Positions 201 to 62,925 of a stretch of 64,000 bases of DNA are shown piece after piece (the first letter of the stretch is position 1; each line of letters begins with the position of its first letter). The position numbers and the translations under genes are program-made. This DNA is from Ilex aquifolium (lineage: Eukaryota; Streptophyta; Magnoliopsida; Aquifoliales; Aquifoliaceae): NCBI GenBank assembly GCA_951799425.1, contig OX637409.1, forward strand, positions 12,868,960-12,932,959, given 5' to 3'. The notes under the pieces are model-generated. The model made no database searches and was not told where the DNA came from. It saw only the letters and a program-made list of their open reading frames with translations.

Positions 201-371
201 CGTTCGAACGTGAATTGACGTTCGAACGTGAATTGACGTTCGAACGTGAATCGACGTTCGAACGTGAATAAAAGTTCGAACGAAAGTTCGTTCCAGTACT
301 CTTTGTCTGATTGAAAAACAAAAGTACTGGGAGCAAGTGACGTTCGAACGCCAATGACGTTCGAACGTGAT
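201..371 (+). repeat. TTCGAACG palindrome array in U3
   Basis: Copies of CGTTCGAACG recur about every 18 bp (unit close to GTTCGAACGTGAATTGAC), with two further copies near 340-371. The short open frame through it is a by-product of the 18-bp periodicity. The array lies just upstream of the TATA box, in the place where the related E LTR has GTACCGGTAC repeats. Confidence 0.85.
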
Positions 372-420
372 CAATGAAACAGAGTATCAGAATTACGTCG
401 GTTGAGATATTTTCTTCCCC

Positions 421-428
421 TATAAATA
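421..428 (+). promoter_or_regulatory. TATA box of the LTR at the window start
   Basis: TATAAATA lies about 50 bp after the palindrome array and is followed by GCCTCC...TTTAGCCT, a context also found after the TATA box of element A. It is a plausible Pol II core promoter of the LTR. Confidence 0.7.
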
Positions 429-793
429 CATAAGGGCGCCTCCTTTAGCCTCCATACACCATTTACAACCCTAGAAATCCTTGAGAAACAAGAAAGAAAG
501 GGGGAAACACAAGATCAAAGAGGATTTGCACCTTGAAGTGGATCAAAATCTCAAGTTCTTCAAGAACTCTAAGGAAGAAGAAGGTAGGGGTTTTCTTCCA
601 TTCTTGTTCATTGATGCTAGGGTGTTTATATACATATGTTTTGACTCTTAATCATATATATTTGTTATGGAATCCTTGTTTCTTGATGTTTTTGTAAATC
701 TTACCATGTTATGATGGAAGTTATAGCTTGATAGTCATAAAACCTTTGTTCTTGACATCCAAACTCTAATTTTTCAAGAAGTATGGATTTTTC

Positions 794-6989: not shown

Positions 6990-7205
6990 CTACTTGTACC
7001 CCGATACAAGTTGTACTGGTTCTTCAGAGGGAAATAGACTTGTACCAGTACAACCTTTGTTGCACCAGTTCATCGTGAGACAGAGAGAACTTCTATCGGT
7101 ACAATCTACATTTACCGGTTCTTCTCCATGCAGAATTCACTTCTATCTGTACAACTCACTTCTATCGGTACAAACTCAAGTAGAGTACACCCTAACCGGT
7201 TCTTT
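6990..7205. repeat. Decayed GTACCGGT-type repeat cluster
   Basis: Scattered variants GTACTGGT, GTACCAGTAC, ATCGGTAC and ACCGGTTC recur every 25-40 bp. Several differ from GTACCGGTAC by one C-to-T or G-to-A step at the central CpG. It resembles the U3 palindrome arrays elsewhere in the window in an older state. No LTR boundaries could be fixed around it. Confidence 0.5.
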
Positions 7206-10475: not shown

Positions 10476-10615
10476 ACTACCGGTAGTCAATGGTCCAGTG
10501 TGCCCGAACTACCGGTAGTCAATGGTCCAGTGTGCCCGAGCTACCGGTAGTCAACGGGTAGTCGAGTGCCAATGTACCCGAACTACCGGTAGTCAAAATT
10601 AACTACCGGTAGTCA
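10476..10615 (+). repeat. CTACCGGTAG palindrome array in U3 of element A
   Basis: Five copies of the perfect 10-bp palindrome CTACCGGTAG lie within 140 bp, joined by a TCAATGGTCCAGTG-type linker. The last two copies are spaced differently. The array ends about 50 bp before the TATA box. Confidence 0.9.
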
Positions 10616-10665
10616 CTGTAAAAATCTGAAATTTTAAGTCGCGAACAAGCCGATTTTTCCTCCAC

Positions 10666-15450: not shown

Positions 15451-15910
15451 TGATGAGCACATAATATTGCATATTTGAAGGGCTCATTACATGCATTTTA
15501 ACTCAACTTTTGCATTTAAATACTTAGAGTTAGCCGAAATTATGAATAATGTTGATATTTTGATGTTGCAAGTTTTTATTGCTTAAATCATGTATTTTAG
15601 GACATTGCAACTATGTTGGATGTGTGGTGAAGGCATGGACACAATACATGAAGAATTGGAGGCTTAAAAGTGAAGAAATCAAGAAGGCATTGGTGCTTGG
15701 GAACAAGGGCACCAGCTGCAGCAACAATTGGAAGTACTGCCTCGGAATTCCTCAATTTTGACCATGTTCTACTCAGATTTTGGAAAATTTCAAAACATGA
15801 AAGTTGTAGATATGGGTGTCTTCTGTTTGGTGTCAACATTTCAGCCCAATCCAACGGTTGGATCAAGAGTTATGCCTATTCTACCAAAGGTGGTCCAGTG
15901 TAGAAAAATA

Positions 15911-15985
15911 GTACCGGTACTCGGTACCGGTACCAAATGGTACCGGTACCCAGTACCAAATGGTACCGGTACCCAGTACCGGTAC
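15911..15985 (+). repeat. GTACCGGTAC palindrome array, element B 5' LTR
   Basis: Four ACCGGT cores with GTAC flanks, separated by TCG or CAAATG-type linkers. The 3' LTR copy (21208-21261) lacks one of the 22-bp units. In the solo LTR at 57929 the corresponding place holds CCTACCGGTAGG repeats. Confidence 0.9.
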
Positions 15986-17073
15986 TCCGGACCTTCTGGT
16001 CGCGAAAACAGCCTGTAACTCAACTTTGAGGCTTGGGGGTCCCACCTACACTTCTTCCACGCCTATCCCAACATTTCCTTACACATTTACAGGCCTCCTA
16101 CACTCAAGTGGAAGACTTTAAAGGCTAATGCATTAAAGGAGGAATGGGGGGAAGTGGGCTGCCCAGGCTATGATCTCCTAGCCTGTCAAAGCCATCCATT
16201 CAGCCCTCTCTTGATGGGAGCTCGTTCACACAGCTAGGGGGGAGCCTCTTGGACGTTTTGGCAAGTCTCCACACTGAATATATTCAACATTCAACACACA
16301 ATGTAAAGGGTTGGCTACCTAAGCTTAGTTTTAGTTCCATGTAGAAGATAATGAATAGTGTAATGTAAGTTTATGTTTTTGCATTTTCCTTTCCATTTCA
16401 ATTGTTGTAAGCTTTAAACTTCTTGTAATCTTCATTCCTTGCACTTTAATCTTAGTTGTTTCAAGTTTATTCCAAGTTTACTTGCATGTTTTAGATTTCA
16501 CCGTTGTTATTTAAGTGTTCTTCATTTTCAAGCTTTGAAATGGGTTTTGAATATTTTTTCTTCTTAGTTTAAGTTTTCTTGCATTGAGTTAAGTTTTAAT
16601 CTTCATTTCTTCTACATGTCTATTTACATTATGCTTGTCTTGCATTTTTAATATGAGTAGCTAGGATTTAAGTTGGTTAATCCAAGGGAAAATTCCTCTT
16701 GGGAATACCATTTTCAACTCTTCTTCATTCCTCCCTTTAGAGTCAAATGGTTCGGTTTGACGGGGTTGAGAGTGGATGAGTTGGTGAGCCTTTGATATTC
16801 CGTAGGCCTAGTCACGGTTTATGCTTAGATACTCACCAATCTCGTCCCTAGCTTCCCCCGAATCAATCGTTCATTCATGCTCAATCGGAGGAAGGCTTTG
16901 AGTTGATTTGGTATTCCCATTGGAATGAACCCTTTGGATTAGCCAACACTTGCTTTCTTGCATTTTCATTTTGAACAAAACTCACCAAAACACAAATACA
17001 AGATTTTACACTTTCTTTTCACTTTTGCAAAATCACTTTTACAAAACTCCCTTTCCTTCCCTGAGGAGACGAC

Positions 17074-18471: not shown

Positions 18472-18637
18472 CATGAGCCCTTGTTGTTTTGTTTCCATGT
18501 ACATAGTAGTTATATCTCTTTTATTGTTATATTTTTATTTTTCATGTCATTGTAGTATAATGGTGAGTATCATTGTAGTTTAGATTTTAACATGAAGCAT
18601 GTTTCAACGGGAGTAGTTTGGCAGACAAAGCAGAACA

Positions 18638-18765
18638 GTACCGGTACTAAAAGTCTACTGGAATCGCAGTACCGGTACTCGGTACCGGTACCAAATGGTA
18701 CCGGTACCCAGTACCGGTACTAAAAGTCTACTGGAATCGCAGTACCGGTACTCGGTACCGGTACT
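18638..18765 (+). repeat. GTACCGGTAC array inside element B interior
   Basis: Several GTACCGGTAC palindromes in two near-identical halves separated by a TAAAAGTCTACTGGAATCGC linker. This is the motif of B's own U3 but lies about 160 bp after the ORF stop, outside the LTR. Confidence 0.9.
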
Positions 18766-18898: not shown

Positions 18899-18929
<31 letters not shown>

Positions 18930-20747: not shown

Positions 20748-22604
20748 TGATGAGCACATAATATTGCATATTTGAAGGGCTCATTACATGTATTTTAACT
20801 CAACTTTTGCATTTAAGTACTTAGAGTTAGCCGAAATTATGAATAATGTTGATATTTTGATGTTGCAAGTTTTTATTGCTTAAATCATGTATTTTAGGAC
20901 ATTGCAACTATGTTGGATGTGTGGTGAAGGCATGGACACAATACATGAAGAATTGGAGGCTTAAAAGTGAAGAAATCAAGAAGGCATTGGTGCTTGGGAA
21001 CAAGGGCACCAGCTGCAGCAACAATTGGAAGTACTGCCTCGGAATTGCTCCATTTTGACCATGATCTACTCAGATTTTGGAAAATTTCAAAACATGAAAG
21101 TTGTAGATATGGGTGTCTTCTGTTTGGTGTCAATATTTCAGCCCAATCCAACGGTTGGATCAAGAGTTATGCCGATTCTACCGAAGGTGGTCCAGTGCAG
21201 AAAAACAGTACCGGTACTCGGTACCGGTACCAAATGGTACCGGTACCCAGTACCGGTACTCCGGACCTTCTGGTCGCGAAAACAGCCTGTAACTCAACTT
21301 TGAGGCTTGGGGGTCCCACCTACACTTCTCCCACGCCTATCCCAACATTTCCTTACACATTTACAGGCCTCCTACACTCAAGTGGAAGACTTTAAAGGCT
21401 AATGCATTAAAGGAGGAATGGGGGGAAGTGGGCTGCCCAGGCTATGATCTCCTAGCCTGTCAAAGCCATCCATTCAGCCCTCTCTTGATGGGAGCTCGTT
21501 CACACAGCTAGGGGGGGAGCCTCTTGGACGTTTTGGCAAGTCTCCACACTGAATATATTCAACATTCAACACACAATGTAAAGGGTTGGCTACCTAAGCT
21601 TAGTTTTAGTTCCATGTAGAAGATAATGAATAGTGTAATGTAAGTTTATGTTTTTGCATTTTCCTTTCCATTTCAATTGTTGTAAGCTTTAAACTTCTTG
21701 TAATCTTCATTCCTTGCACTTTAATCTTAGTTGTTTCAAGTTTATTCCAAGTTTACTTGCATGTTTTAGATTTCACCGTTGTTATTTAAGTGTTCTTCAT
21801 TTTCAAGCTTTGAAATGGGTTTTGAATATTTTTTCTTCTTAGTTTAAGTTTTCTTGCATTGAGTTAAGTTTTAATCTTCATTTCTTCTACATGTCTATTT
21901 ACATTATGCTTGTCTTGCATTTTTAATATGAGTAGCTAGGATTTAAGTTGGTTAATCCAAGGGAAAATTCCTCTTGGGAATACCATTTTCAACTCTTCTT
22001 CATTCCTCCCTTTAGAGTCAAATGGTTCGGTTTGACGGGGTTGAGAGTGGATGAGTTGGTGAGCCTTTGATATTCCGTAGGCCTAGTCACGGTTTATGCT
22101 TAGATACTCACCAATCTCGTCCCTAGCTTCCCCCGAATCAATCGTTCATTCATGCTCAATCGGAGGAAGGCTTTGAGTTGATTTGGTATTCCCATTGGAA
22201 TGAACCCTTTGGATTAGCCAACACTTGCTTTCTTGCATTTTCATTTTGAACAAAACTCACCAAAACACAAATACAAGATTTTACACTTTCTTTTCACTTT
22301 TGCAAAATCACTTTTACAAAACTCCCTTTCCTTCCCTGAGGAGACGACCTTGGAATATTTTCCAAGTAAAACACACGACCACAAAAGACTCCTTTCGATT
22401 GGGGAGCATTTTTGTGCACACATTCTCCATTTCACATATATTTTGTTCATCCATTTCCCACCATTTGTTCGTTGTTGCCTAATCTTTTGCATTACCCCGA
22501 GGGAGAGTGACACTCCCCCATCCATATAAGCCATATACAATACACACATTGAGGGTGAGGGTGATGTTTAGGGGTTAGGAAACAACACCGTTTTCCATCA
22601 ATCA
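20748..22604 (+). repeat. 3' LTR of element B
   Basis: Pairs with 15451-17328 and differs by scattered substitutions, a few single-base indels and one missing 22-bp unit in the GTACCGGTAC array (21208-21261). It is followed by the CACGC target duplication. Confidence 0.97.
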
Positions 22605-24260: not shown

Positions 24261-26438
24261 TGTAACACCCCGCATTTTCGTTTATATATGTATATAGATA
24301 TCTACTAAATAATAGTTGTAAAAATGTTGATATAGTATAACTCGAGGAAATAATATTTGAAATTTAGTTTTAGTATGTGAAAATATGAAATTTTATGTCC
24401 TAGAACTTGTACTAAATAGGTTTGAGGTAGAAATATATGTTGGAGAGGTTTGGGATGGTTTTGGAAGAGATTGGAATGGATTAGAAATGAAAAATAAAGG
24501 AAGTAGGCAAATCTGGGATCAACTACCGGTAGTCAATGGTCTAGTGTGCCCGAACTACCGGTAGTCAATGGTCCAGTGTGCCCGAGCTACCGGTAGTAAC
24601 TACCGGTAGTCAATGGTCCAGTGTGCCCGAGCTACCGGTAGTCAACGGGTAGTCGAGTGCCAATGTACCCGAGCTACCGGTAGTCAAAATTAACTACCGG
24701 TAGTCACTGTAAAAATCTGAAATTTTAAGTCGCGAACAAGCCGATTTTTCCTCCACTATAAATACATTTTTGTCACCTCCTTAGCCTTCATTACACCACT
24801 CCAAACCCTAGAAAACATAAGAGAGGAAGAGAGAAAGAGAGAAACACAAGATTAAGAGAAAACAAGAGATTGAAGGGTTGATTCAAGATCAAAACCCTAA
24901 TTTTTCCAAGAACATTAAGGTAGGGGATTTCTTCCTAATCTCTTACATTGAGGCTAGGATTTATGTATATATATATGTTTTTCACTCTCATCCTTATATA
25001 CATGATAAGAAATACATGATTCTTGTTCCTCTTGAAATAAATGCCATGTTTTGAACATTGTGATGCTTGGGTAACTATTAAATTTCTCTTTTTCATCTTC
25101 AAACCTTGGTTTTAAAGAGAAATGGACTTTTCCCTCTATTTTTCCTTGGTATTGCTTTCAAAACTTTAGTGTTTGATATTGTACACCAAAATGTTACTTA
25201 TGATGATCTCTTGCTCATTTTCTTCCATCATATTATGAAACATTATATTAGAAATTGCGGAATTTGGTAATTCCTTGAAATGTTGATGAATTGAGAATAT
25301 TTTGGTTTCCTCAATTGTATGGTTGTTGTGAGGGACTTGGATTGCCTTCGAGAGATGCCGTAGAGTGTTAGAGGTTAGTCTACCCCAGTGGGGGTGAGAT
25401 GGTTTCCTAGCACTTGTAGTGGGTTGTCATTTGGTAATGAAACCACTATCGTTCACTGGAGTTCGAACAAGGGATAGTATACTTTTCCTGGGAAGGGACT
25501 CGTCACTGCCATTGGGATGGTAGACGCCCTTTCCTAAAATGCTTGTGAATGCGATTGTGATTGGTGGACTAGGTATAATCGTTGGGTAGATTCATGAGAA
25601 ACAATCAACATACATGGTACGGGGATGAACCAATATACATGGGATGATGAGTTGGAACGTCTCGGCCGGTGCATTGGTATGGGACAATGCATCGGAAGAC
25701 GCCCTTCCGAATTGGCCTAACTTTGGACACGGTGTATTGTGGTTCAATTTAATTTATTCTTTTACTTGATTGTTGTTATGGCTTAAACTTGAGATCTATT
25801 TAAAATATCCTGTTTCTCCTTCAAAATGGTATATATGCTATTTGTGAAAATGAGACCAACCGTTTTATATGCTTTTCTAAACCTTGTTTGAGTTTGGGAA
25901 GATTTTGCTGCAGAGCTTCGTGCTCATCCCCTACAATTAATATTTTTCAGATTTGGCTTTAGAGGAGGAGCTCGGTATGAATGAGCCGGGCCTTGGGGAA
26001 GCTTCCTTGGAGGGGTACCTAGATCCCGAATGGGACATCTAGAGATATAGCTTATTTTGTTCTAGACTAGGAGATTTATTTCTGAACAATGTAAAGTCTA
26101 GATTCTTTTGAAACTCCGCTGCGATATATTCATGTAATTCTTTTGGGGAATGTAATTGCCATATCTGGCCTATTCTTTTGGGATAATGTTAAGGATAGTA
26201 TAGATGGTAAATATAAATTTTATTGTTATTGGATGGTTAAATGGACCCTGTGTGGTCAAGTTAATAGAATTGCACAGGTTGTGATTTTTGGGTGGAGCTT
26301 CCTGTACAAAGGAGTCTCTGCCCAAATTTGGTTAAAATTAAGAATGTTTCTTATTTGATGGATATATATTTAGTTGCTCTCATGACATGAATGGTTTCAT
26401 AGTGTAATGCCGTCCAGCGTGTGTTTTGGGGTGTTACA
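24261..26438 (+). repeat. 3' LTR of element A
   Basis: Pairs with 10217-12346 and is about 48 bp longer, because the CTACCGGTAG array (24521-24706) has extra copies. TATAAATA is at 24757-24764. The GAATA target duplication follows. Confidence 0.97.
24521..24706 (+). repeat. CTACCGGTAG array, expanded copy in element A 3' LTR
   Basis: Seven CTACCGGTAG copies against five in the 5' LTR. The added piece contains two palindromes set close together and one linker. Confidence 0.88.
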
Positions 26439-35630: not shown

Positions 35631-37506
35631 TGTAACACCCCGCATTTTATTTTATATATGCATATAGATTTATAGTAAATAATTGTTGTAAAAATGGGGA
35701 TATGTGTAGTGATGTGTGTTTGAATTTGGTAGATTGAAAAAGTAGAGATTTAAAATATTAGTGGAAATAATAGTTGAAATTTAGTTTTAATAAGTGAAAA
35801 TATGAAATTTTAGGTCCTATAACTTGTATTAAATAGGTTTGGTGTAAAAATATGTGTTGGAGAGGTTTGAGATGGATTTGGTTGGCTTAGGATGGATTGG
35901 AATTGGAAAAGGGGTGAAACAGTGAACAGTGCACGTGAACAGTGCACTGGCTGCAACTTCAAGCCCAATTTAGACCTTGATGCAGTCAATATATTTCAAA
36001 ACTCAAAACATGAAAGTTGTAGAGATCTTTCTTATCATTCCATATCATCTTGAATCATCTCAATCGGAGCTCGGATGAGAGAGTTATACCCAGATAACGA
36101 AGCGATGTCGAAACAGTCCGGCAGACTACCTTTCACCAATTTGATCATAACTCTTTGTTGGAAAGTCCAAATTGCGCACCGTTATTTTTTTTTGGAACCC
36201 TAACTCGTATATCTTTCCAACCATATAGGTCGCACATACTAGAAATACCTGAGTCAAATCAGTTTATTCTCCAAAGTTGACCAAAATCTGCACTGTGGTG
36301 TTCCTTGGATAGTAATTTTAATGTTTCGAGTGTAAATTTATTTTAGTTTTAAAATAAATCATAAAAATAAATCTTTTTAGGTTAAAATAACATTAAAAAT
36401 GAATCCGGAACGTCGAAAAACCTTAGGGTAGTCATATGAATCAAAATGAAGATATTTATTGGCAAAATTGTAATTTTGGAGAAAAATGAAATTTTTGGGC
36501 CCAATAAACAGTAAAATTCGGGATTTTACTGCCCTTATAACCCCATTATCTTCTCATTTTCTTCATTTCTTCATTCCACTCTCACACCCCAACCCTTAGA
36601 ACCCTAGAGGAAGACTAAGAGAGGAAGAAAAGGGAAGAGGGAGGTCCCTAGAGCTTGGGTTTCACTTTCCATCTTGATTCAAGGTAGGAGTTTTCTTTCA
36701 TTCTTGTTCATTGATGTTAGGGTTAATTTATATGTATGTTTTGACTCTTAATCATATGTATTTGCTATGGGTTCCTTGTTTCCTTAATATTCTTGCAACC
36801 TTTATCATGTTTTGAGTAAAGTATTGGTGGGAGAACTATAAAAACCCTAGTTTTTGAGGAATGGGGATTTCTCTCTCAATATTCACTAAATCTTGGTGTT
36901 GAAAACTCTAGAGCTTTGTGTTGAGTAATATAATGATATTGATAATGATCTCTTGCATGTTTCTCTTTAAATTGCCCTATTTGAAGATATCACTTGTGAG
37001 AATTGAGGATTTTTCTTGGAAATTGCTTGTAAATAGGAGACTTGTGGAATTGTTACATTGAGGCTAGGGTATATATATATGTGTGTGTTTTGGCTATCAA
37101 TGGTATATATATGCTATGGATTCATCATCTCTCAGGCTTTTTGCAAAGATTACATGTTTTGAACAAAGTTAGTGTTTAATACCCATGAAATCTCTTTTCT
37201 AGTTTTAAAACCCTAATTTTTGGAGAGTAATGTATTTCCTTCTTAAATTATTTCTTTATTATGAATTTCGAAACCGTAGTGCTTTGTGTTAGGTAGAAAA
37301 ATGATGTTATTGTGATCTCATGTATTTTTCTTAGTTGGTTGTGGAATTGTTACATGTTATATTTTGGGGATTTTAGATAGATGCTTGTAAATTGAGATAA
37401 ATATTGGAATTGTATGCTTGGTTGGGTTGTTTGTGATGCACATGAGTGAGAGGTTCCATGTAAGGATGCTCACCCCTTCTCAAGAGGTTCCCGGTAAGGA
37501 TGCTTG

Positions 37507-37511: not shown

Positions 37512-39446
37512 TGTAACACCCCGCATTTTCTTTTATAAGATGTATATAGATATATAGTAAATAATTATTGTAAGAAATGTGGATATGTGTACTGGTGTAA
37601 GAATGAACTATGTAGATTGTAATAGTAGGAGAAATGCTAGAGATGCATATTGATTGGGAAGTTTGAGTTTCAAAGACGTCTAAACTTGGAAAGGGTGATT
37701 AGATGAATTTCTAAATATTTTTAGGTCAAAATAAGGTTTCCATTGAATCTGGAAGGTCGAACAACCTTGGGAGAGGTAATATGGGGTGTATTGGAAGTTA
37801 GGAAATATTCCGGAGTGAAAACACACTTAGAGAGAATTTGGGTAAAAAGGAGTTGGGACACCTTCTAGTATTTTGGTCATAAATTTTTATTCTTATGTCC
37901 AATTGATCTGAAATTTGGACAGTAGGTAGTAGACATCTAGGGCTACAAAAGTGTATCTCATGAAAATTTTCCAATTCGACCTCTAAATGGGTCAAAACTG
38001 CCCTGGAAGTCGAGGTAGCCGAAGTGTACCGGTACACAGTACCGGTACCATACCGTACCGGTACCGCGTACTGGTACGACTACTCCAGTAGCTTAACCTT
38101 ACCGGTACCGCGTACCGGTACCATATCGTACCGGTACCGCGTACCGGTACGATTTATCTGACGCCCGCCGAACAGTAAAAATCGGGATTTTGGTGTTTTA
38201 AAACACCCCTTTTAGCCTCATTTGCCCCATTCTTCATTCCCACTCTCACACTAAACACTTTAGAACCCTAGGAGAGAAAGAAAGGAAGAGAGAAACTCAA
38301 GATCAAAAGGGGAAAAACACAAGGTTAAAGGGTGATTGAAGGATCAAACCCTAGAGTTTTCAAGAACATCAAGTAGGGGTTTTCTTCCATTCTTGTTCAT
38401 TGATGTTAGGGTTATTATATATATATATGTTTTGACTCCTAATCATATGTATTTGCTATGGTTCATTGTTTCTTGGCTCTCTTGCAATTGTTAACATGTT
38501 TTACACAAAATTAGGGTAGTATATCCATGAAATCCCTCTTTTGTGTGAAAAACCCTAGTTTTCAAGAGTGATGAGTTTTCCTTTTGAACTATTCCTTTAT
38601 TCTTGATTTCAAAATCATTGTGTTTTGTGTTGAGTAATAAAACGATATTGTTGTGATCTCTTGCATTTTTCTTGGTTGGTTATTGAAAATGTCACATGCT
38701 TAATTTGAGAATTTTTGAGATATGATTGTAAAATGAGAAATTGTGGATTTTGTAATTCTTTGGAATTGTTGGGAATTGAGAATATTTTGGTTTCCTCATT
38801 GGTATGGTTGTTGTGATGGACTTGGATTGCCTTCGAGAGATGCCGTAGAGTGTTAGAGGTTAGTCTATCCCAGTGGGGGGTGAGATGGTTTACCGTAACC
38901 TTTCATTTGATTATTGTTACTGCTTAAACTTGAGATCTATATTGAAATGTCCCGTTTTCTTTCAAAATTGATATATGCTATTTACTAAATGATACCGACC
39001 GATTTTTATCTGTTTCTAAACTTTGTTCGGGTTTGGAAGAATTTTTCTACAGAGCTTCGTGCTCACCACCTACAGTTGAACATTGTTCAGATTTCATGCC
39101 AGAGGATGAGCTCGGTGCGAACGAGCTGGGCCATGGAGAGGCTTCTCTAGAGGGATACTTGGATCCCGAGTGGGACATTTAGAGATGTCGTCTACTTTTG
39201 TTCTAGACTGGAAAATTCTTTTGAAACACAGTGTAGTCTAGATTTCTTTTGTTTATTCCGCTGTGCTACTTTAAATAAATTTTTGAAATGTAAATGCCAT
39301 TGTTGGGCTTATTCTTTTGGGATGATATTGTAAATTCTATGGATGATGAATGGAAAAATTTGCTTATCGATGGATCATCTTAGTGCTCTCATGATGTAAA
39401 TGTTTTAGAATGTAATGCCGTCCAGGGTGTGTTTTGGGGTGTTACA
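37512..39446 (+). repeat. 5' LTR of element E (with internal deletion)
   Basis: TGTAACACCCC to GGGGTGTTACA. The GTACCGGTAC array at 38025-38151 is longer than in the 3' LTR. The deletion joins GGGTGAGATGGTTT directly to ACCGTAACC, with TTT microhomology at the break. Confidence 0.95.
38025..38151 (+). repeat. GTACCGGTAC array in element E 5' LTR
   Basis: Six or more GTACCGGTAC copies, several fused through CGCG (GGTACCGCGTACCGG). The 3' LTR array (44713-44810) has fewer units. One copy has decayed to GTACTGGTAC. Confidence 0.9.
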
Positions 39447-44199: not shown

Positions 44200-46448
44200 T
44201 GTAACACCCCGCATTTTCTTTTATAAGATGTATATAGATATATAGTAAATAATTATTGTAAGAAATGTGGATATGTGTACTGGTGTAAGAATGAACTATG
44301 TAGATTGTAATAGTAGGAGAAATGCTAGAGATGCATATTGATTGGGAAGTTTGAGTTTCAAAGACGTCTAAACTTGGAAAGGGTGATTAGATGAATTTCT
44401 AAATATTTTTAGGTCAAAATAAGGTTTCCATTGAATCCGGAAGATCGAACAACCTTGGGAGAGGTAATATGGGGTGTATTGGAAGCTATGAAATATTCCG
44501 GAGTGAAAACACACTTAGAGAGAATTTGGGTAAAAAGGAGTTGGGACACCTTCTAGTATTTTGGTCATAAATTTTTATTCTTATGTCCAATTGATCTGAA
44601 ATTTGGACAGTAGGTAGTAGAAATCTAGGGCTACAAAAGTGTATTTCATGAAAATTTTCCAATTCGACCTCTAAATGGGTCAAAACTGCCCTGGAAGTCG
44701 AGGTAGCCGAAGTGTACCGGTACACAGTACCGGTACCATACCGTACCGGTACCGCGTACCGGTACGACTACTCCAGTAGCTTAACCGTACCGGTACCGCG
44801 TACCGGTACGATTTATCTGACGCCCGCCGAACAGTAAAAATCGGGATTTTGGTGTTTTAAAACACCCCTTTTAGCCTCATTTGCCCCATTCTTCATTCCC
44901 ACTCTCACACTAAACACTTTAGAACCCTAGGAGAGAAAGAAAGGAAGAGAGAAACTCAAGATCAAAAGGGGAAAAACACAAGGTTAAAGGGTTATTGAAG
45001 GATCAAACCCTAGAGTTTTCAAGAACATCAAGTAGGGGTTTTCTTCCATTCTTGTTCATTGATGTTAGGGTTATTATATATATATGTTTTGACTCCTAAT
45101 CATATGTATTTGCTATGGTTCATTGTTTCTTGGCTCTCTTGCAATTGTTAACATGTTTTACACAAAATTAGGGTAGTATATCCATGAAATCCCTCTTTTG
45201 TGTGAAAAACCCTAGTTTTCAAGAGTGATGGGTTTTCCTTTTGAACTATTCCTTTATTCTTGATTTTAAAAGCATTGTGTTTTGTGTTGAGTAATAAAAC
45301 GATATTGTTGTGATCTCTTGCATTTTTCTTGGTTGGTTATTGAAAATGTCACATGCTTAATTTGGGAATTTTTGAGATATGATTGTAAAATGAGAAATTG
45401 TGGATTTTGTAATTCTTTGGAATTGTTGGGAATTGAGAATATTTTGGTTTCCTCATTGGTATGGTTGTTGTGATGGACTTGGATTGCCTTCGAGAGATGC
45501 CGTAGAGTGTTAGAGGTTAGTCTATCCCAGTGGGGGGTGAGATGGTTTCCTAACACTTGTAGTGGGTTGTCATTTGGTAATGCGACCACTATCGTTCACT
45601 GGAGTTCGAACAAGGGATGGTATACTTTTCCTGGGAAGGGACTCGTCACTGCCATTGGGATGGTAGACGCCCTTTCCTAAAGTGTTTGTGAATGTGATTG
45701 TGATTGGTGGGCTAGGTATAATCGTTGGGTAGATACATGAGAAGCAATCAACATACATGGTACGGGGATGAACCAATATAAAAGGGATGATGGGTTGGAC
45801 CGCCTTGGCCGGTGTATTGGTATGGGACAATGCACCGGAAGGCGCCCTTCCTAAATGGCTAAAAGTGGTAAATGGTATATTGTTATGAAATTTACCGTAA
45901 CCTTTCATTTGATTATTGTTACTGCTTAAACTTGAGATCTATATTGAAATGTCCCGTTTTCTTTCAAAATTGATATATGCTATTTACTAAATGATACCGA
46001 CTGATTTTTATCTGTTTCTAAACCTTGTTCGGGTTTGGAAGAATTTTTCTACAGAGCTTCGTGCTCACCCCCTACAGTTGAACATTTTTCAGATTTCGTG
46101 CCAGAGGATGAGCTCGGTGCGAACGAGCTGGGCCATGGAGAGGCTTCTCTAGAGGGATACTTGGATCCCGAGTGGGACATTTAGAGATGTCGTCTACTTT
46201 TGTTCTAGACTAGAAAATTCTTTTGAAACACAGTGTAGTCTAGATTTCTTTTGTTTATTCCGCTGTGCTACTTTAAATAAATTTTTGAAATGTAAATGCC
46301 ATTGTTGGGCTTATTCTTTTGGGATGATATTGTAAATTCTATGGATGATGAATGGAAAAATTTGCTTATCGATGGATCATCTTAGTGCTCTCATGATGTA
46401 AATGTTTTAGAATGTAATGCCGTCCAGGGTGTGTTTTGGGGTGTTACA
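44200..46448 (+). repeat. 3' LTR of element E
   Basis: 2249 bp, complete, paired with 37512-39446 and followed by AGAAA. It holds the full R/U5 region that the 5' copy has lost, including CCTTCGAGAGATGCCGTAGA around 45487 and the TTCGTGCTCACC block around 46058. Confidence 0.95.
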
Positions 46449-52616: not shown

Positions 52617-54868
52617 TGTGACGCCCCAAAATCCGGGGGTCCGTTGATTACCCATCAACCCGCGGAATACTCATGGATACCGAGTAGCTCGATATCACAC
52701 CGTCATGCCCCATTTACCGGGGTCCTTAATTTTAACAAAATTTGGGCAGAGTCTCCTTTGTATGGGGAGCTCTACCCAAAACACAACCTGTGAAGTATAC
52801 ATTAACATGACCCATCCGAGGCCCAATATAACACAATGACCACACATGGTCTATTTATAAGTAAAATTTGACCGCACCGGGTCCATTTATCAATACTTAT
52901 ATCAAAACATGCAAGGTTAGTTTAACAATAGTCCATATAAGTTCTATTACATTTATTCATGAAAACTTTACAAGTCAAAACCATGTTAATCAAAAGGTTT
53001 ACAAAATCATGCACTAAGACCACAGGTCGGCCTCCTTCACCCTTGATGCTCTACATGGGAGCCATCCGCCGGTGCAAACCCCACACCTGAAATTGTTTCC
53101 CGTATAGGGTGAGCCTCGCTTAGTAGAAAATTCCCTACAGAGGCTACTCCCCACCTAGATGCACATGGAATGCTTATATGCAATACTCAATTATCCACAA
53201 CAATTCTAATCATGTTTATGCAACTCAGATATGGAATTTCTTATGACATGTCATGCAACGAGGTGAGACTCATTCATGCACTCAATCCGAGCCCTTCCTG
53301 GCTCCCCAACACACGCAAGTGCCAATGTGTGAATCCGTCATTTATGTTACACATCAATGACATTTTACAAAACTAGGGTCTTTCTTGGGGTGGGCATTCA
53401 TGGACTTACACCAACGGCACCCAACCGACACAGAATTTCAGGACTTCAACCCACGGTTCCGCGTATACCGACACACTTTATGGCCTTTTACACAACGGAG
53501 TGCGAATCCTATCAACGAGTCTTTCACCCGAGGGATATTCTAGCCCTTCTTGCTAACCCCGACCTAATTTATCTCTCATGCAATTATGCGACTCAGCGGG
53601 ATCTTCGATCCCTTCCTTCCGAGTCCCTTGTCAAATACCAAGAGTGGCATTTGATTAACCATGCACACACACACACACACACTCACACCCATGACTTACA
53701 CCCATGAATGTGATGTCATGAACATGCCCAATACGCAATTGATGCCATATGAGCAATACAAACCATATATCATCATATTCTATGAAACTTTATATCACAT
53801 GCATATAAATTTCATAATTCATCATGCTCAACATATCAACAACATATTCAAACATGTTATTCCAATGGCATCAAACAACCATTTAAATCAAGCAAGACAT
53901 TTTATCAAACACCTTCAAGGCACAACTTATAATCACATAGCATGCCTCAAATTTCCCTAAGTTACAAGAACAATCACATGTAACTTCAATATATCGAAAT
54001 CGAGCTAGAAGCTAGCCTAAGCCATTTCTATGCTCACTCTTCCACTTCCACAACCATAGACATATGTATAGATCATATATATATGCATACATAACCCAAG
54101 CATTTCCTAGAAGCATTCTAGACTAGGAATCAACCCAAGTAGGATACCCTTACCTTTTGAAGCGTGAGATGAAGACTAGAGCTTCAAAGCTTCAAGAACA
54201 CCTCAAGAACACCAACAAAAATCCCAAAATCCTTGATTTCTCCAAAGACTCCACTTGAATCTTCGGTGAAATCCCTCGTTCTTGGTACGTACGCATAGCC
54301 CTCGTCGAGGAGATGAACTTTGCCTCTTGGATCGACGGATTTCGACCGACGGAACTCCTGGAATCGGAGCGGGAAGGTTGAATAAATTTTTTTTTCTTTC
54401 TCTTTGGTCTTGGCCAGCTGCTTGCAGCTAAGGGGAGATATTTTTTTTGTCCAAAAAGCTGATTTAAGAGGATATTTATAGGCAAAAATGTGCGGTTCAC
54501 ATTGCATCGCATATTCTCGACTTCCGGGTCCGTTTTTCGTCCCGAAACGATTCATTATACATCGGACTAAGTTCAAATTAATTTTATTTGAACTTTAACT
54601 TAATTTTAAGGAAATTTTATAAAATCCATTATTGGGGACCTTTAAAATGTCATTCGCCACGCAGTCGCCTCGAACGACGTGCAAAAATCTGACTATCTCG
54701 GAATTCGACGAAATTTGATAGGGTGACTAGATTCCGCGATACGAATCCAACGGCGAATTCCGTTTCCTCATCCGAGGTCTAGAGTATGAGTATTTCAAAT
54801 AAGCATTAGGATGGCAAATGACCATTTTGCCCTTATTTACAAAAATTCAAATTTACCCGGGTTTCACA
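52617..54868 (-). repeat. Solo LTR, Tekay-like, in the R/U5 region of element C 5' LTR
   Basis: The reverse strand starts TGTGAAACCCGGG and ends TTTTGGGGCGTCACA; AGAAG flanks it on both sides (52612-52616 and 54869-54873). A TATAAATA on the reverse strand at about 54474 would be its promoter. A CA microsatellite lies near 53664-53682. The open frames at 53357-53960 and 54184-54576 show no protein features. I see no strong palindrome array in this LTR. Confidence 0.9.
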
Positions 54869-55674: not shown

Positions 55675-57333
55675 TGATTAGCACAATATATTGTATGATT
55701 CACATGTGCAAATCAATGTTAATTGAATGGTTTTTATAATTAAAAGATGGAGTTTTACTTCATAATTTCTCAATTTAGCATTTGATGATTGCAGGGTAAA
55801 AGTGCGCAACATAACCATCTTGAGGCTTCTCAAATACATCAAGATGAATAAGGGTGAAGGAAAACCAAAGGCAAGCTCAACAGGGGAGGACAGGAAGAAA
55901 TTCAGGAAAATAAGGCTAGCGTACCGGTACGCTGACCCTACTGGAGTGAATCATACCGGTACGCATACCGGTACGCTGACCCTACTGGAGTGCTTCGTAC
56001 CGGTACGCCCGAAGGAATTTTGCCCAAATTCTGCGAACTTGTCTCAGCCGATTTTTGTGGACCCCACCATGTCTTCTCCCACCTGCCTCCTGCAAGCCCA
56101 GAACACTATTCATTGTGTTCACACCTCTTTTAGACTATTGATTGCAGAAGAGCATTAATGAGAGGAGTGAGAAGTTGAGCTGCTGGGTCTTGAGGAGTGC
56201 CCTGCCATGCCCTGTCCAAGCCATCACCTGCAACCTTTTGACACTTCTCCAGGCTACTCCATGTCTCCTGCACGTTTTGGGTTGGAAAATGATCTCCATT
56301 ATAGGCTGGAGAGGAGGGCATTATGGATAATTTTTTAGAGAGAGTTTTTAGAGAGTGAAGCTCTGGGCGAGGAAGACAATGAATAGTAGATTCTAGAGAG
56401 AGAAAGTTGTGATTTTTGCATTTCTTTTGCTGCATTGTCTTGTAATCAATGGTAGGAACCTTTATATCTTGAATGAATGCCATTAATGTCATTTTCCCTT
56501 ATGTCATTGCTAGTTTAATGCTCCCATTTAAGTTCTACCATTAATGCTTCAAAAGTTATTCATGTTCATAGCTATAAAATAGATTTTCATGCCATTCACT
56601 TCTAGTCTATGATTTCTTGTGCTTAGGTACTTCAAAACTCCATATCCTTACAATGCATTATCTTTACATTGTCATTTCTAGTTGTAGTATGAGTAGCTAA
56701 ACACTTGTTGTTGGCAAGACCAAGGGAATCCCCATTTGGGTATACCATTTCAACTCTTTCTACACCCTCCCTTTAGAGTCCCATGGTTCGGTTTGACCGG
56801 ATTGAAGGTGGATGAATTGGTGAATCTTTGATAATCCGTAGGCCTAGTCACGGTTTATGCTTAGGCATTCACCAACATCATCCTCGGCTTTCCGTGAATC
56901 AACCGTTCATTCTTGCTCAATCGGAGGAGTGATTTGAGTTGAGATTGTATACCCATTGGAGGGACCTCTTGAAATTGCCAACACTTGTTTTCTCATTCTA
57001 ATTTCACCAAAACACACTTCACCAAACAATTTCCAACAACAAGAATTTTACATTTTCTTTTCCCAAATCACTTTCAAATTGGTTTACTTCCTTCCCCGTG
57101 GAAACGACCTTGGAATACCACCAAGTAAAAGACGACCCACGAAAGTCTCCTTGCGATTGGGGAGCATTTTTGTGCATTCAACTATCACATTCCCACTGAC
57201 TTATATCCTTCCCTATTGCCCTTTCTTTTCACACTATCCCAAAGGGGGAGAAATCCTTCCTTCCGCTCATACATTGCATCATTTGAGGGATAGCATTTTA
57301 GGGGTTAGGAAAGACATAGTTTCCAAACAATCA
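55675..57333 (+). repeat. Solo LTR H, Athila type, in the core promoter of element C 5' LTR
   Basis: Starts TGATTAGCACAATATATTG and ends CCAAACAATCA, with CCTAT duplicated (55670-55674 and 57334-57338). It shares with B the GGTTCGGTTTGACCGG block and the U5 hairpin (CTTGG/CCAAG, 57109-57125). It contains CGTACCGGTACG repeats at 55920-56007 separated by a CTGACCCTACTGGAGTG linker. Confidence 0.93.
55920..56007 (+). repeat. GTACCGGTACG array in solo LTR H
   Basis: Four ACCGGT cores in CGTACCGGTACG or CATACCGGTACG context. The CCCTACTGGAGTG linker appears twice. Confidence 0.88.
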
Positions 57334-57683
57334 CCTATTTATAGGAATAAGGAAGCATGAGGTGGAAGGATAAAGCCAAACCGCCAAGGGTGACCGTCCG
57401 GACGCCACCACCACCGTCCGGATGGTGGTGCTTTGCAGTTGATCCATGTGTCGTTTGCTGGAGCTTACATGTGTCGTTTTACACTTTGGTCGTTGCTCTT
57501 TCAAGCTTCTATACATTGTTCCTTGTATTTTCTGTCAATTCCGCATTTAAACCCTAAAATTTCAAACATAAAACTCATAAAACCCTAGTTTACGCACAAA
57601 CCCTAATTCATAATTTTAATTGTTTTATCTTACAAAGTTGATTACTTAATCATTTTAATTTACATACTAGTTAGAGTTAATCA

Positions 57684-57928: not shown

Positions 57929-59944
57929 TGATGAGCGCATAATATTGCATATTTAACGGCCTCATTACATGCATTTTAACTTAGCTTCGCATTTAAGTAC
58001 ATATAGTTAGCCGAATTTATGAATAATGTTGAATTTTTGATGTTGCAGGTAATTATAGCATAAATCATGTATTTTGTAACCTTGCAACTAAGTGTGGTGG
58101 AGTGGTGAAGAGATGGACACATTACATGAGGATTTGGAGGCTTAAAAGTGAAATAAATCAAGGAGGTATCGATGTTTGGTAACATAGGCACCAGCACCCG
58201 CACCATTTGGTAGCAGTACCTCGGTTTTCCTCATTTTTAACCATGATATAATTAGAATTTGAACAAGTTCAAAACATGAAAGCTGTAGACCTGGATGTCC
58301 TATACATTGTATCAAAATTTCAGCTCAATCGGATGGTTGCATCAAAAGTTATGATAATTCTACAAAAACTGGTCCTGGAGCTAGCATCCCATTTTCGACC
58401 TACCGGTAGAAGGAACAAAAACCTATCGGTAGGTTTTTCCTACTGGACAAAAACCTACCGGAAACCTACCAAAAACCTACCGGTAGGTTTGTGCTACTGG
58501 TGTCCAACCTACCGGTAGGTTTCCCGCGACCTACCGGTAGGTTTTGCCCAGAATGCTTGAACGTCATCAACTCATGCTCCACTTGCTTGGGGGTCCCTCC
58601 ATTGATTCTCCCACTTGTCCCCTGACATCCATTACACATATACATGCCTCCTACACCCTAGTTGGATACTTTGGAGGCAATGACATTAATGAGGATGGGA
58701 GAGAAGGGGGCAGCCATGATGGGTGCAGTCTAAGCTCTTCCTAGCCTGTCCAATGCATCAAATCAATTCCCATTGATGGGGGGTCTTCTCTCACAGGCTA
58801 AGGGAGCCTCATGGACGAAAATGCATCACTCTACTCACCATATATTCAGCATTCACAAACTTTGAAAGGGGTGGCTACCTAAGCTTAGAAAGTCCAAGGA
58901 AGAAGATGATGAATAGTAGATAGAAAGCTTATGTTTTTGCATTTTCTTCCATCATTTTACTTGTAATTTATTGTAAGACTCTTGTAATCTTCATTTAATG
59001 TCTTTAATGTCATTTACTTCAAGTACATTTCAAGTTTAATGCTACATTTTAGATTTCACCATTGTTGCTTCCAAGTTTTCTTCATTTCTTGCTTTAAAAT
59101 GGGTATTGAATATTTTTTCTTCATAGCTTAAGATTTCTTGCTTTAAGTTAAGTTCAATGTTTCCTTTCTTCATTATGCCCCTTTACATTACCTCATTGTC
59201 TTTCCTTCAAGTATGAGTAGCTAGATTTTAAGTTGGTTAATCCAAGGGAGAACTCCTCTTGGGTGTGCCACTTCAACTCATTTTCATTCCTCCTCTCAGA
59301 GTACGATGGTTCGGTTTGACTGGGTTGAGAGTGGATGCGGTTGTGAGTCTTTGATATCCCGTAGGCCTGGTCATGGGTTATGCTTGGATCCTCACCTCCA
59401 TTTCACCCCTAGCTTCCCACGAATCAATCGTTCATCTAAGCTCTATTCGAGGAAGGCTTCGAGTTGATTTGGGATTCCCATTGGAGTGAATCCTTCGGAT
59501 TAGCCAACACTTGTTTTCTTGCATTTTCATTAAGAACAAAACTCACCAAAACCAACTACAAGATTTTACACTTTTTATTTTTACAAAATCACCTTCACAC
59601 AATTCCCTTCCTTCCCTGAGGAGACGACATTGGAATACTTTTCCAAGTAAAACACGACAAGCAAAAGACTCCTTGCGCTTGGGGAGCACTTTTGTCCATT
59701 TCGCACATTCCATTTCATACATTTCATTCCATCCACCATTCCGTTGCCCCTATTTCCCACATCATTCCGAGGGAGAGTGACACTCCCCTACACACTATAA
59801 ATCATATACACATTTGAGGGTGATGTGCCCTTTCTTTTGACATCATCCCAAGGGAGAGTGACACTCCCCTTCATACACACATCATACATACACATGGAGG
59901 GATGATATTAAGAGGTTAGGAACAACAAGGTTTTTGTCTAAGCA
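57929..59944 (+). repeat. Solo LTR, Athila type, inside element G gag
   Basis: Starts TGATGAGCGCATAATATTGC and ends TCTAAGCA, with ATGAT duplicated at 57924-57928 and 59945-59949. Removing it restores a continuous gag reading. It is related to the B LTR over most of its length, including the U5 hairpin (59630-59646), but carries CCTACCGGTAGG repeats (58398-58543) where B has GTACCGGTAC. Confidence 0.93.
58398..58543 (+). repeat. CCTACCGGTAGG palindrome array
   Basis: About five perfect or near-perfect copies of ACCTACCGGTAGGT, with AAAACC/GGTTTT extensions in some. One copy has decayed to CCTATCGGTAGG. The flanking GTTATG..ATTCTAC..GGTCC sequence is shared with the B LTR. Confidence 0.9.
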
Positions 59945-59949
59945 ATGAT

Positions 59950-61095
59950 GTCGGTGACAACTTTGAGGATGTTGGTGCTAATGTCCCAAGGGGAGCTGGA
60001 GTGCAAGACCCTAGAATTTCAAACCCTAGAATGCATTTTCCTCCTAGGAATAAAGGAAACAATATCCCAATTGATTCTCCGGCGAGGTCAATGCAGGATT
60101 ATCTCCAACAGACTCGTAGCACCACTCCCTCTTGCATACTTCTCCCGGTCCAAGCTCATGCCTTCCTAGTCAAGCTGGGAATGTTACAAGTACTTCTTCA
60201 ATTCCACGGAATTGAAAGAGAATATCCTTATTTACACATTAAGGAATTTGAGGAAATAGTTGCAACCTTCCTCACTAATCATGGCACGGAAGACATAGCC
60301 AGTATGAAATTGTTCCCCTTTTCCCTAAAAGATAAGGCAAAAATATGGTTGAATTCCTTGAAGTTCCGATCAATAACCTCTTAGACACAAATGCTTTCTG
60401 AGTTTTTAAACAAATTTTTCCCAGTGCCTAAAACCACCGCTCTTAAAAAGTAAATTCAAAACTTTTCGGAAAAGCCCATTAAACAATTTTATCAATGTTA
60501 GGATCGCTACAAGGAATTGCTATAATCCATTCCACAACATGGCTTTGAACCATGCCAACTGGTGAGTTTCTTTTATGAAAGGATTACACCGAGCCATTGA
60601 CAGTTCATAGACATGATGTGCAATGGGGAGTTTTTAAACAAAGATCCTGACGACCGAGGTCTTCTCCGGGTAGTAATCAACGAAGTGGGGGAGGGATGTA
60701 TGATTTAAGGGACCTGGAGGACTTGCTTTCCAAAATCACCAAATTGTGTCAAAAATTGGAAAGTCTAGAGGTCAATAGGAGACATGAAATGTCTAACATT
60801 TCCAAGACCGAGGAGGGTTACTCAATTTGTGAGAGTGTAGAACATTCCATATCGGGGTGCCCTAACATTCTGGCACTTAAGGAAGTCTACCATGAGCAAG
60901 TCAATGCCTTCAATCAAGGTAGGCAATCATTCTCCTCGCACTCTAACACTTACAATCTGGGTTGGAGTAATCACCCGAACTTTAGTTGGAAGAATGAGAA
61001 TCCCACTCCTCAAGGGTCTAGTTCGTATTCACCCCCATGCCCCCTAAGCAAAATCAATTCTATGGCCAAGGTCAATCGTCTAGCTCTCCATACCC
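59950..61095 (+). pseudogene. Athila-type gag of element G, second part
   Basis: Open piece 60001-60384 has the Athila capsid motifs in order (LLQFHGIEREYPYLHIKEFE, MKLFPFSLKDKAKIWLNSLK). Later pieces carry HGFEPCQLVSFFYE, FLNKDPD, a knuckle that has lost its first Cys (SICESVEHSISGC) and NLGWSNHPNFSWKNE. Stops and shifts are frequent after 60384. Cut off by element F at 61096. Confidence 0.78.
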
Positions 61096-62925
61096 TGTAA
61101 CGCCCCAAAATCCCCCTTGGACGGCATCACTATCTAAAACCATGCACATCATGAGAGCAACTAATAAAATTCATAAACAGAGAAACTTTCATTTATCATC
61201 CATAATATCTACAACGTCAGGTAAAAGAATAAGCCAAACCATGACCATTACATTCAAAAGAATATGCCATTCATAGCAATTACACCCAAAAATCAACTAT
61301 TATCTTGCAGCGGAATAACAAAGACATTAGACTTCACAGTTTCTCAAAAAGAACTTCCTAGTCTAGGACATAAGAGAATATAGCTCTAAACGTCCACCTC
61401 TGGATTCACGTTCCCATCTATGGGAGCTTCCTAATGTACCGGCTCATCCACTCCAAGCTCCTCTTCTAGGCCATAATCTGAAAAGATGTTGTTTGTAGGC
61501 GGGGTGAGTACTCAGCTCTGTAGGAAAATCCTCCCAAACTCGAACAAGGTTTAGAAAACATATAAAACAAGTTGGTCTCATTTCACAATTATCATACATA
61601 ACTTTTAAAAGAAAACAATGATAGTTTATCCGATCTCAAGTTTAAGTAATATCAATGAAGTAAATGAAGAAGTAAAACCAATTTCCAAAACGAACAATTC
61701 CAACAAATCACTATAAATCATAGCCAACCATTGACATCATAAACCATAGCCAACCATTGGCACAATAAACCATAGCTCCCAATGTATTTCAAACCACAAC
61801 TTGTATCTCAGGTATGATATATGATATCGCAAGAATAAACACATCGAGAATATCCTGGCCCACACACACACACCCAATCCTCTCAAGGATATAAAACTTT
61901 AGGAAGGGCGTATACCAACACATTGACAGTGACGAATCCAACCCAGGAGTAGTATACTAACCCTAATCATCGGTACCCGTGAGCGAATAGTGGTTTGGTC
62001 CTCACAAGGCACCAACCCCACTACGAGTGGTAGGAAAAATTCAAACCCGCACGGAGTAAGAAATGGATCTACCCACTCTACGATACCCGGTCAACGGCCA
62101 CCCATGGTCATCCGAACATCCACAAGAGATACAATACCCAACCAATTTCATCAAGTCACAAACAAATCCAAAAATCCCCAAATTTCATATGGAGTATTAC
62201 CATAGAACCATTTAAGAAAATATACAAGAGATCATCCACAATACCATTTTGTTATTCAATACAAAGTACTAAAGTTTTAAAAACAAGGACAAAGGAAGAA
62301 TCAAGAGAAAAATCTATTTCTCTTGAAAACTAGGGTTTTTAGTCAAGAAAAGAGATTTAATAGCTATTCCACCATGGCATTGTCCAAAACATGGTAATAT
62401 TTACAAGAATATCAAGAATCAAGGATTTCATAGCATACATATAGGATTTAGAGTCAAAAGAATACATATATATAAGCCCTAGCCTCAATGTAAGAGAATA
62501 GGAAGAAACCCCTATCTTAAATCAAGAGTTCCAAGCAAAACCCAAGCTCTAGAGACTTCCTTCCTCCCTTTTCTTTTTCCTTTTATCTTCCCCTAGGTTT
62601 CTAAGAGGTTTGGGGTGAGAGTGGAGTGAAAGAATAGAAGAAAATAGGGTGAAAAGGTGTTTTAAACTCAGCCCAATCCCGAATTTTACTGTTTTAAAAT
62701 TTTTGATTTTTACCGACAGTACCGGTACGCTGTACCGATATGGTTTGCTCTCGGGACATTGGGGCACTGGTACGCTGTACCGGTACGGTTTGTCCGGATT
62801 TACCTTTTTCACCTGTTTTTCATTTCCAATCCATTCCAAACCCTTCCAAAATCAACCCATTATACAATATATATTTGTATATCAAACATAGTTGATACAA
62901 GTTCTATTACATGTGGGGGTTTACA
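61096..62925 (-). repeat. 3' LTR of element F
   Basis: On the reverse strand it starts TGTAAACCCCCACATG (an altered start; A and E have TGTAACACCCC) and ends TTTTGGGGCGTTACA. GTACCGGTAC-type palindromes lie at 62718-62787. The CTACAGAGCTGAGTACTCACC block near 61500-61530 corresponds to the CAGAGCTTCGTGCTCACC block of A, D and E. A short CA run lies near 61860. Confidence 0.9.
62718..62787 (-). repeat. GTACCGGTAC motifs in U3 of element F
   Basis: Two intact GTACCGGTAC palindromes and two decayed ones (GTACCGATAT, CTGGTACG), joined by a GCTGTACCG-type linker. Confidence 0.8.

Follow-up and report, generated by a model that had tools for sequence, protein, structure and literature searches.

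Arrays of CpG-centred palindromes upstream in the long terminal repeats of two gypsy retrotransposon groups in holly

Sireviruses, which are Ty1/copia elements, carry palindromic RM boxes in their long terminal repeats (LTRs), a short distance upstream of the TATA box, and some of the elements have further boxes in their internal region (Bousios et al. 2010, PMC2829016). In that paper, the boxes are family-specific and CpG-bearing, lie mostly in the upper half of the LTR, show a CGG-CCG signature in 12 of the 13 listed, and are called Sirevirus-specific after comparison with other copia elements. Here we describe arrays of CpG-centred palindromes in the unique 3' region (U3) of LTRs in 64,000 bp of the Ilex aquifolium genome (assembly GCA_951799425.1, contig OX637409.1, positions 12,868,960 to 12,932,959 of the forward strand; hereafter the window), a stretch filled by many nested LTR retrotransposons. 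Like RM boxes, these arrays consist of family-typed CpG palindromes repeated in the LTR and, in one element (B), also internally; unlike RM boxes, they are carried by Ty3/gypsy elements of two groups. Among the matches listed from an open-licence library, we saw no account of such arrays in LTRs of Tekay or Athila elements, and none of those listed for CCGGTAC and TACCGGTA concerned LTR arrays, judged by title.

VANDALs are DNA transposons that encode their own binding protein, and the BII boxes of Tnt1, a copia element, are tandem and not palindromic. The BII boxes are repeated U3 units said to bind defence-induced factors (PMC3316501); the arrays described here are likewise repeated units in U3, with binding reported for Tnt1 and putative for the arrays. 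They also resemble the VANC target arrays of VANDAL elements, short tandem motifs that diverge between relatives, in a paper whose available text contains the stem "palindrom" 0 times (PMC5735166). For Del elements, Cruz et al. 2014 described plastic CpG islands in the LTRs of grasses, with none in their eudicot group, and an LTR of about 2 kb in many eudicot groups of Tekay/Del (PMC4029996). One of our two groups apparently belongs to the same lineage as these Del (Tekay) LTRs with 5' CpG islands, as suggested by LTR size and a chromodomain-type integrase end; unlike the Del islands, its CpG stretch is built of palindromes, and "palindromic" occurs 0 times in the available text of PMC4029996.

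CpG-centred palindromes of at least 12 bp numbered 39 in the window. Over 200 dinucleotide-preserving shuffles the expectation was 2.03, and no shuffle had more than 7; 38 of the 39 lay inside arrays, with one outside. Palindromes centred on GC, AT and TA numbered 1, 17 and 7 against 2.8, 8.2 and 7.0 expected, the AT-centred ones also being somewhat above chance (shuffle maximum 16). We further evaluated palindromes of at least 8 bp in 14 U3s of 11 families, whose ends we set ourselves, using 500 shuffles each. Enrichment was detected in 11 of the 14, where no more than 6 of 500 shuffles equalled or exceeded the observed number, but was absent from the U3s of D, K and H in the same test. A preliminary description of the window, made from its letters, had called for comparison with dinucleotide-shuffled controls, and both tests bear out the enrichment. 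U3 arrays occurred in eight LTR families (W, A, B, C, F, S55, S57 and G). In W, A, C, F, B, S57, S55 and H, but not in G, the array overlapped the 100 bp of the LTR that are richest in CpG, and among 12 LTRs only both LTRs of C, the 5' LTR of B and S55 qualified under a cpgplot-like 200-bp criterion.

The clusters of W, A, B, C, S55, F, G and S57 were re-located, and the coordinates and letters given for them in the preliminary description proved right; they lie on the plus strand unless noted. The U3 of W, an LTR cut by the window start, contains seven GTTCGAAC, mostly spaced by 18 bp (201..368; CGTTCGAACG). Element A carries five CTACCGGTAG in its 5' LTR (10476..10613; spacings 32, 32, 42 and 20; ACTACCGGTAGT) and seven in its 3' LTR (24522..24704). 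In B, five GTACCGGTAC in the 5' LTR (15910..15986) and four in the 3' LTR (21207..21260) are joined by an internal array of seven (18637..18764), which lies between an open reading frame (ORF) with CCHC knuckles and the 3' LTR and has a block in common with the LTR array. The 5' LTR of C holds seven intact TACCGGTA plus one TACTGGTA (38024..38151) and its 3' LTR six GTACCGGTAC (44712..44810). Two intact GTACCGGTAC with degenerate copies are found in the LTR of F (62719..62786, minus strand), four TACCGGTA in the solo LTR S55 (55918..56007), and four intact CTACCGGTAG with degenerate copies in S57 (58400..58542; CCTACCGGTAGG). The TCCGGA cluster of G, on the minus strand, consists of GTCCGGAC and CACCACCATCCGGATGGTGGTG in the 3' LTR (30248..30282) and has a counterpart in the 5' LTR (57395..57422).

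The claim that every family has such a cluster holds for these eight but not for three others. D has GTGAACAGTGCAC twice (CAGTGCACTG; 35922..35950, plus strand) at a site homologous to the array of A, and its description as the only one without CpG is valid for palindromes of at least 8 bp, while by eye a 6-bp CACGTG spans the junction of its two units. H (6991..7201, plus strand) holds no intact TACCGGTA but eight sites that differ from it by one or two changes, compared with a mean of 1.07 and a maximum of 8 in 1,000 plain shuffles; the 12 changes comprise 3 of CpG type, 3 of CHG type and 6 transversions, background near-matches being CpG or CHG in 36 of 223, and its array has probably decayed. 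K (52617..54868, minus strand), a solo LTR with a TATA box and no array, is a counter-example. The 3' partners of A, B and C, the internal array of B, the array of H and the second G cluster, as well as K without one, are additions to the preliminary list.

The LTRs of the window fall into two groups as described here, group 1 comprising W, A, C, D, F and K and group 2 comprising B, S57, S55, G and tentatively H. Most families have no word of their own: the octamer TACCGGTA, with 52 occurrences in the window, 51 of them in clusters, is shared by six families (A, B, C, F, S55 and S57) across the Tekay/Del-like and Athila-like lineages, the exceptions being W with GTTCGAAC and G with TCCGGA. A palindrome peculiar to each family, as first proposed, was thus an overstatement. 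Unlike the CGG...CCG of the RM boxes, the core here is CCGG, with overlapping half-sites TACCG and CGGTA, or TCGA. The half-sites CGGTA and CGGAC do appear in the Sirevirus table (Inga; Usier, HOPIE, OPIE-2 and others), which with two free positions may be chance, and intact copies number 2-7 per LTR in the window, or 4 in the 3' LTR plus 7 internally for B, 7 for A and 6 for C by 3' LTR and internal region, compared with at least 8 RM boxes per element (3' LTR plus linker; PMC2829016).

To follow the arrays beyond the window, copies were searched for in the same 800-Mb genome, each query being represented by the best 40 scored matches of 2,135-3,261 candidates. From each set of 40 we read 30 copies for W, 30 for B, 20 for S57, 15 for C and 10 for D, found by left flank alone, and 28 for A, whose query included the array and so favours array-bearing copies. 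Because only best matches were taken, the samples lean to young copies; they include the copies lying in the window (one for A, one for W, two for B), and certain pairs, separated by a few kilobases, may represent both LTRs of a single element. CTACCGGTAG was present in 28 of 28 A copies and GTTCGAAC in 30 of 30 W copies. B copies contained GTACCGGTAC in 29 of 30 and TACCGGTA in all 30, and both words were found in all 15 C copies. For S57, CTACCGGTAG occurred in 17 of 20 copies and at least one intact TACCGGTA in 19, while D copies had CAGTGCACTG in 9 of 10 and a CpG palindrome of 8 bp in 0 of 10 stretches. Among five types counted, none belonging to another family occurred in the A, W, B and C copies read, so that the sampled copies show one main palindrome type per family, with exceptions in S57, where one copy (L150) has GTACCGGTAC in place of CTACCGGTAG and 6 of 20 have an additional TTCCGGAA. 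Far from being confined to one or two copies per family, the clusters recurred across these best-match samples. Two S57 copies retained the symmetry with a changed centre, AT in L132 (CCTACATGTAGG) and TA in L142 (CTACTAGTAG).

Paired TACCGGTA palindromes were also observed in 42 stretches (L001-L042) of IMG/VR viral contigs, located by pattern scans that returned 24 and 18 loci. Pieces of pol, capsid and the B ORF from the window gave 0 matches to these 42 loci at E 1e-3, one locus (L018) matched window DNA through its own TACCGGTA array, and a query with the integrase end recovered no relative from viral or prokaryote contigs.

Comparison of the sequences beside the arrays, in which pairs above z 4 of a plain-shuffle null are reported, supported palindrome exchange at a homologous position between related LTRs. 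Left flanks were homologous for W-C (143/180), A-F (93/122), A-D (128/149), F-D (75/103) and B-S57 (134/176), and right flanks for W-A (86/111), C-F (101/130), A-C (53/71) and B-S57 (81/108), with weaker right-flank matches for W-C (37/52), A-F (18/20) and S57-S55 (28/38). Homologous U3 flanks with different palindromes, as noted in the preliminary description, were accordingly found in several window pairs, and L150 adds a case within the S57 family. W is a mosaic, since its left flank is closer to that of C and its right flank to that of A, with a third palindrome between them. No left-flank pair across the two groups exceeded the cut-off, and three cross-group right-flank matches were set aside by eye, A-G (23/27) and C-G (27/30) as GA-rich low-complexity sequence and A-S55 (11/11) as too short. 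The arrays themselves align across groups (C-B 54/69, C-S55 66/91, F-B 52/76, F-S55 44/61, A-S57 32/43), partly because of the palindromes in common. Downstream, the array lies 52-53 bp from the TATA box (TATAAATA) in W, A and G, and 46 bp in C and 53 bp in F (another at 21) from a TTTAAAA box, in agreement with the claim that the cluster ends tens of bases before the TATA box.

The symmetry frequently extends beyond the core. In 34 unique 18-mers, positions ±5 were complementary in 31 (G-C 21, C-G 10), ±6 in 22 and ±7 in 11, compared with 2 at ±5 and 2 at ±6 among six control ACCGGT sites outside the listed stretches. The TTCGAA control was less clean, 5 of 7 outside sites being complementary at the next position too; three of those outside sites are GTTCGAAC and occupy one homologous LTR position in A and C. 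When families were taken singly, the symmetry of positions ±6 clearly exceeded independence in B (0.71 vs 0.39), weakly in A (0.50 vs 0.35) and hardly in C (0.33 vs 0.28), with no excess in S57 (0.82 vs 0.82).

Spacings of at most 50 bp were measured from centre to centre across the full stretches retrieved, counting decayed forms as well. A spacing of 13 was counted 13 times in A, 36 in B, 27 in C and 4 in S57; 16 in B (10) and C (15); 20-23 in A (28), B (1) and S57 (14); 31-32 in A (42), B (2), C (11) and S57 (17); and 42-45 in A (39), C (1) and S57 (3), with a few others at 12, 26, 29 and 46. Counts within a family reflect descent, so the recurrence between families is the point, and by plain counts each of these five classes recurs in at least two of A, B, C and S57. 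The arrays are also rich in ACTGG/CCAGT, with 25 occurrences in 1,770 bp of array stretches compared with 1.9 at the window rate. By eye, 14 of these 25 read YACTGGA, 6 ACTGGT and 5 TACTGGG; we considered YACTGGA as merely a decayed palindrome and, with 14 of the 25 in this form, did not adopt that view, although decay may still play a part. With palindrome cores masked, the array stretches of A, B, B internal, C, S55, S57 and W together contained 14 occurrences of ACTGGA or its complement and the rest of the window 12, and YACTGGA was present in genome copies of A (28/28), W (23/30), B (26/30), S57 (15/20) and C (9/15) and in none of 10 for D.

The retrotransposon proteins of the window matched flowering-plant records in protein searches, including Tanacetum, Macadamia, Ulmus, Vitis and Cornus among the matches listed. 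Group 1 LTRs are about 1.8-2.25 kb long (A 2.13-2.18 kb, C 3' 2.25 kb, K 2.25 kb, F 1.83 kb), start with TGTAACACCCCGCA (variants in F and K) and end with GGGGYGTYACA. A TTGGTATCAGAGC primer site, which we take to be of the initiator-methionine tRNA type, adjoins the 5' LTR in A and C, the two elements in which it was checked. A (10215-26438, interrupted by B) and C (37512-46448) encode gag, protease, reverse transcriptase, RNase H and integrase in gypsy order, and A, C and F have Tf2/chromo-type ends, the chromodomain match in C and F being weak and below the Pfam cut-off. Group 1 thus appears Tekay/Del-like on LTR size, primer site and integrase end; it further includes D (from 35631), F (LTR 62925-61096, minus strand) and K (54868-52617, minus strand), a solo chromovirus-type LTR. 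Group 2 LTRs start with TGAT and have a TGGCGCC-type primer site, with 0 mismatches in B, 3 in G and 4 in H, and we provisionally call the group Athila-like. It comprises B (15451-22604, nested in A), S57 (from 57929), the solo LTR S55 (55675-57333), G (about 28722-57690, minus strand) and tentatively H (about 6817-8350), an LTR-like stretch with ends set by eye that gave no significant alignment with the six other LTRs tried. G appears to be a single old Athila-like element split by several later insertions, its two LTRs matching at 94-95% in three pieces. S57, S55, H, W and D showed no coding sequence of their own, and 5-bp flanking repeats, read by eye, back A, B, C, S55 and K as insertions.

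Other repeats were observed in the same elements. The W LTR contains about ten copies of a 30-bp tandem repeat downstream of the promoter (736-1155), and the B ORF about three tandem 72-bp units, located in its portion that matches CCHC zinc knuckles (17499-17745). Near their 3' ends, otherwise diverged LTRs share about 86 bp at 83-89% identity (12164-12250, 47191-47272 and 52725-52810). B also has three polypurine-tract-like copies (AAGTTGGGGGGTG; 18850-18869, 19010-19029 and 20735-20754, the last at the 3' LTR), and multiple polypurine tracts are likewise described for Sireviruses in the available text of PMC2829016.

We then considered why CpG persists in the arrays, which the preliminary description had attributed to selection or active renewal. 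Kimura two-parameter distances between paired LTRs were 0.0114 for A, 0.0065 for B and 0.0095 for C, or 0.44, 0.25 and 0.37 million years at a rate of 1.3e-8 derived from grasses, and much of the CpG retention is accounted for by the youth of these copies. Array turnover gives direct evidence of renewal: between the paired LTRs of A, B and C, point differences amounted to 2/151, 1/63 and 1/107 inside the array and 22/1981, 11/1794 and 17/1798 outside, while gap columns numbered 45, 23 and 29 inside and 1, 7 and 347 outside, the 347 of C being mostly one deletion of about 340 bp. Array cluster length also ranged from 144 to 175 bp among near-identical A copies (flank identity 94-100%).

Decay was visible as well. 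Counting only listed one-step forms, intact, CpG-decayed, CHG-decayed and other octamers numbered 138, 8, 5 and 5 in A, 79, 0, 1 and 0 in B, 65, 5, 1 and 2 in C, and 43, 16, 4 and 8 in the more diverged S57 family; W palindromes comprised 130 intact, 9 CpG-decayed and 8 with other transitions. CpGs were less often decayed in palindromes than elsewhere in W (7/141 vs 75/512, p 0.0014) and B (0/57 vs 44/582, p 0.025), with the opposite direction in A (9/135 vs 9/247, p 0.21) and 16/333 vs 128/1341 when the three were pooled (p 0.004); these p values are too small, because the copies share ancestry, and with columns kept only if at least half of the copies had CG, 2-5 palindrome columns per family contributed. 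The old element G keeps TCCGGA at 4 of 4 sites. The case for selection or renewal is therefore weaker than first stated, given the young A, B and C, the lack of an intact octamer in H and the decay in S57, yet it draws on G, on W and B and on the turnover; we read the CpG retention as a matter of mostly young elements and fast array turnover, with perhaps mild extra upkeep.

At a probability of roughly 60%, we read the arrays as enhancer-type cis-regulatory modules of U3 for a dimeric host factor. Dyad-symmetric repeated sites, mostly TACCGGTA with family-specific arms, would lie upstream of the transcription start, where a dimeric host DNA-binding factor, or a few related ones, would bind and switch the element on, with several sites at preferred spacings giving strength. 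The array would turn over through tandem duplication and deletion, and whole arrays or arm types may be swapped between subfamilies by recombination at the array site; after insertion, sites would decay from C to T like other methylated CpGs, with upkeep in copies still transposing. This proposal is favoured by the shuffle enrichment, the same place in U3, retention in nearly all sampled copies, one main type per family, the octamer common to both lineages, the recurrent spacings, the distance of about 50 bp to the core promoter in five families and the ACTGG excess, and by likeness to the Sirevirus boxes, similarly built and also upstream of TATA (PMC2829016). Several observations weigh against it. 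Differing arms frequently retain their symmetry, contrary to what a fixed half-site would lead one to expect; part of the ACTGG excess comes from decayed sites and from places where neighbouring palindromes meet, and YACTGGA in the B LTR sits just before the array, not between palindromes. The nearest TATA-like word scanned lies 292-298 bp downstream of the array in B, S57 and S55, 376 bp in H and 398 bp in D, and here the claim of a cluster tens of bases before TATA fails. LTRs of this type can do without such an array, since the U3 of K has a TATA box but lacks one, and D has just a short one with no CpG. A bolder version seems to us improbable. In it, unrelated lineages would have converged on or exchanged a common enhancer code in which TACCGGTA dyads stand at fixed spacings and YACTGGA lies between or next to them; the dimeric host factor reading this code would tolerate or prefer CpG in methylated form, and TACTGGA would be for it a permanent mimic of the methylated half-site. 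If true, such a promoter could work from within silenced chromatin.

Among the roles raised in the preliminary description, sites for a dimeric factor fit best and hairpin RNA is physically plausible. Action as RNA, with U3 transcripts forming long hairpins diced into small RNAs, and palindromes serving as silencing targets or decoys whose new types escape existing small RNAs, is unlikely, though the foremost of the competing explanations. For eight TACCGGTA or TTCGAA array stretches (W in part, 198-347) folding is much stronger than for dinucleotide shuffles (z -4.2 to -10.6), in contrast to eight flanking stretches (z -1.6 to +0.5) and to the controls K and D (both -2.1), and small RNAs of maize Sireviruses are concentrated on palindrome clusters in the available parts of PMC10760457 and PMC5311732; however, the G cluster folds unremarkably (z -0.75), the folding is no independent evidence because any two palindrome copies can pair, and hairpins would explain change better than upkeep, since they give the element no obvious gain. 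Slightly less credible is neutral growth of tandem repeats: palindromes arising by chance at a site prone to recombination would trigger slippage, and their symmetry would be perfected when quasi-palindromes are corrected in reverse transcription or repair. Array length does vary between LTRs of one element and between near-identical copies, and L132 and L142 keep their symmetry despite AT and TA centres, the latter of which could equally reflect deamination on both strands; what neutral growth leaves unexplained is the sharing of TACCGGTA by unrelated lineages, the fixed position and at least one intact site in nearly every sampled copy. We consider it doubtful, more so than either of these, that the arrays are sites for an element-encoded or domesticated demethylating protein, as VANC is for VANDAL elements. 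VANC targets are short motifs in tandem arrays of non-coding regions that differ between related elements (available parts of PMC5735166 and PMC10398659), and B has a matching array in its internal region, but palindromic CpGs still decay (7/141 in W), and in 15 of 18 listed ORFs (stop to stop, 150 aa or longer) Pfam searches recognised no DNA-binding domain besides gag-pol parts and gag-type CCHC knuckles; one window ORF has a match to PF20167, a putative transposon protein of plants whose function is not stated.

If the arrays are enhancer-type modules, they would extend a kind of LTR promoter built on palindrome arrays, known from Sireviruses, to two gypsy lineages of one genome, and because the same octamer occurs in both lineages, a common reader is testable. 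Replacement of the palindrome type at a fixed site may then offer a natural experiment on how retrotransposon promoters change under silencing.

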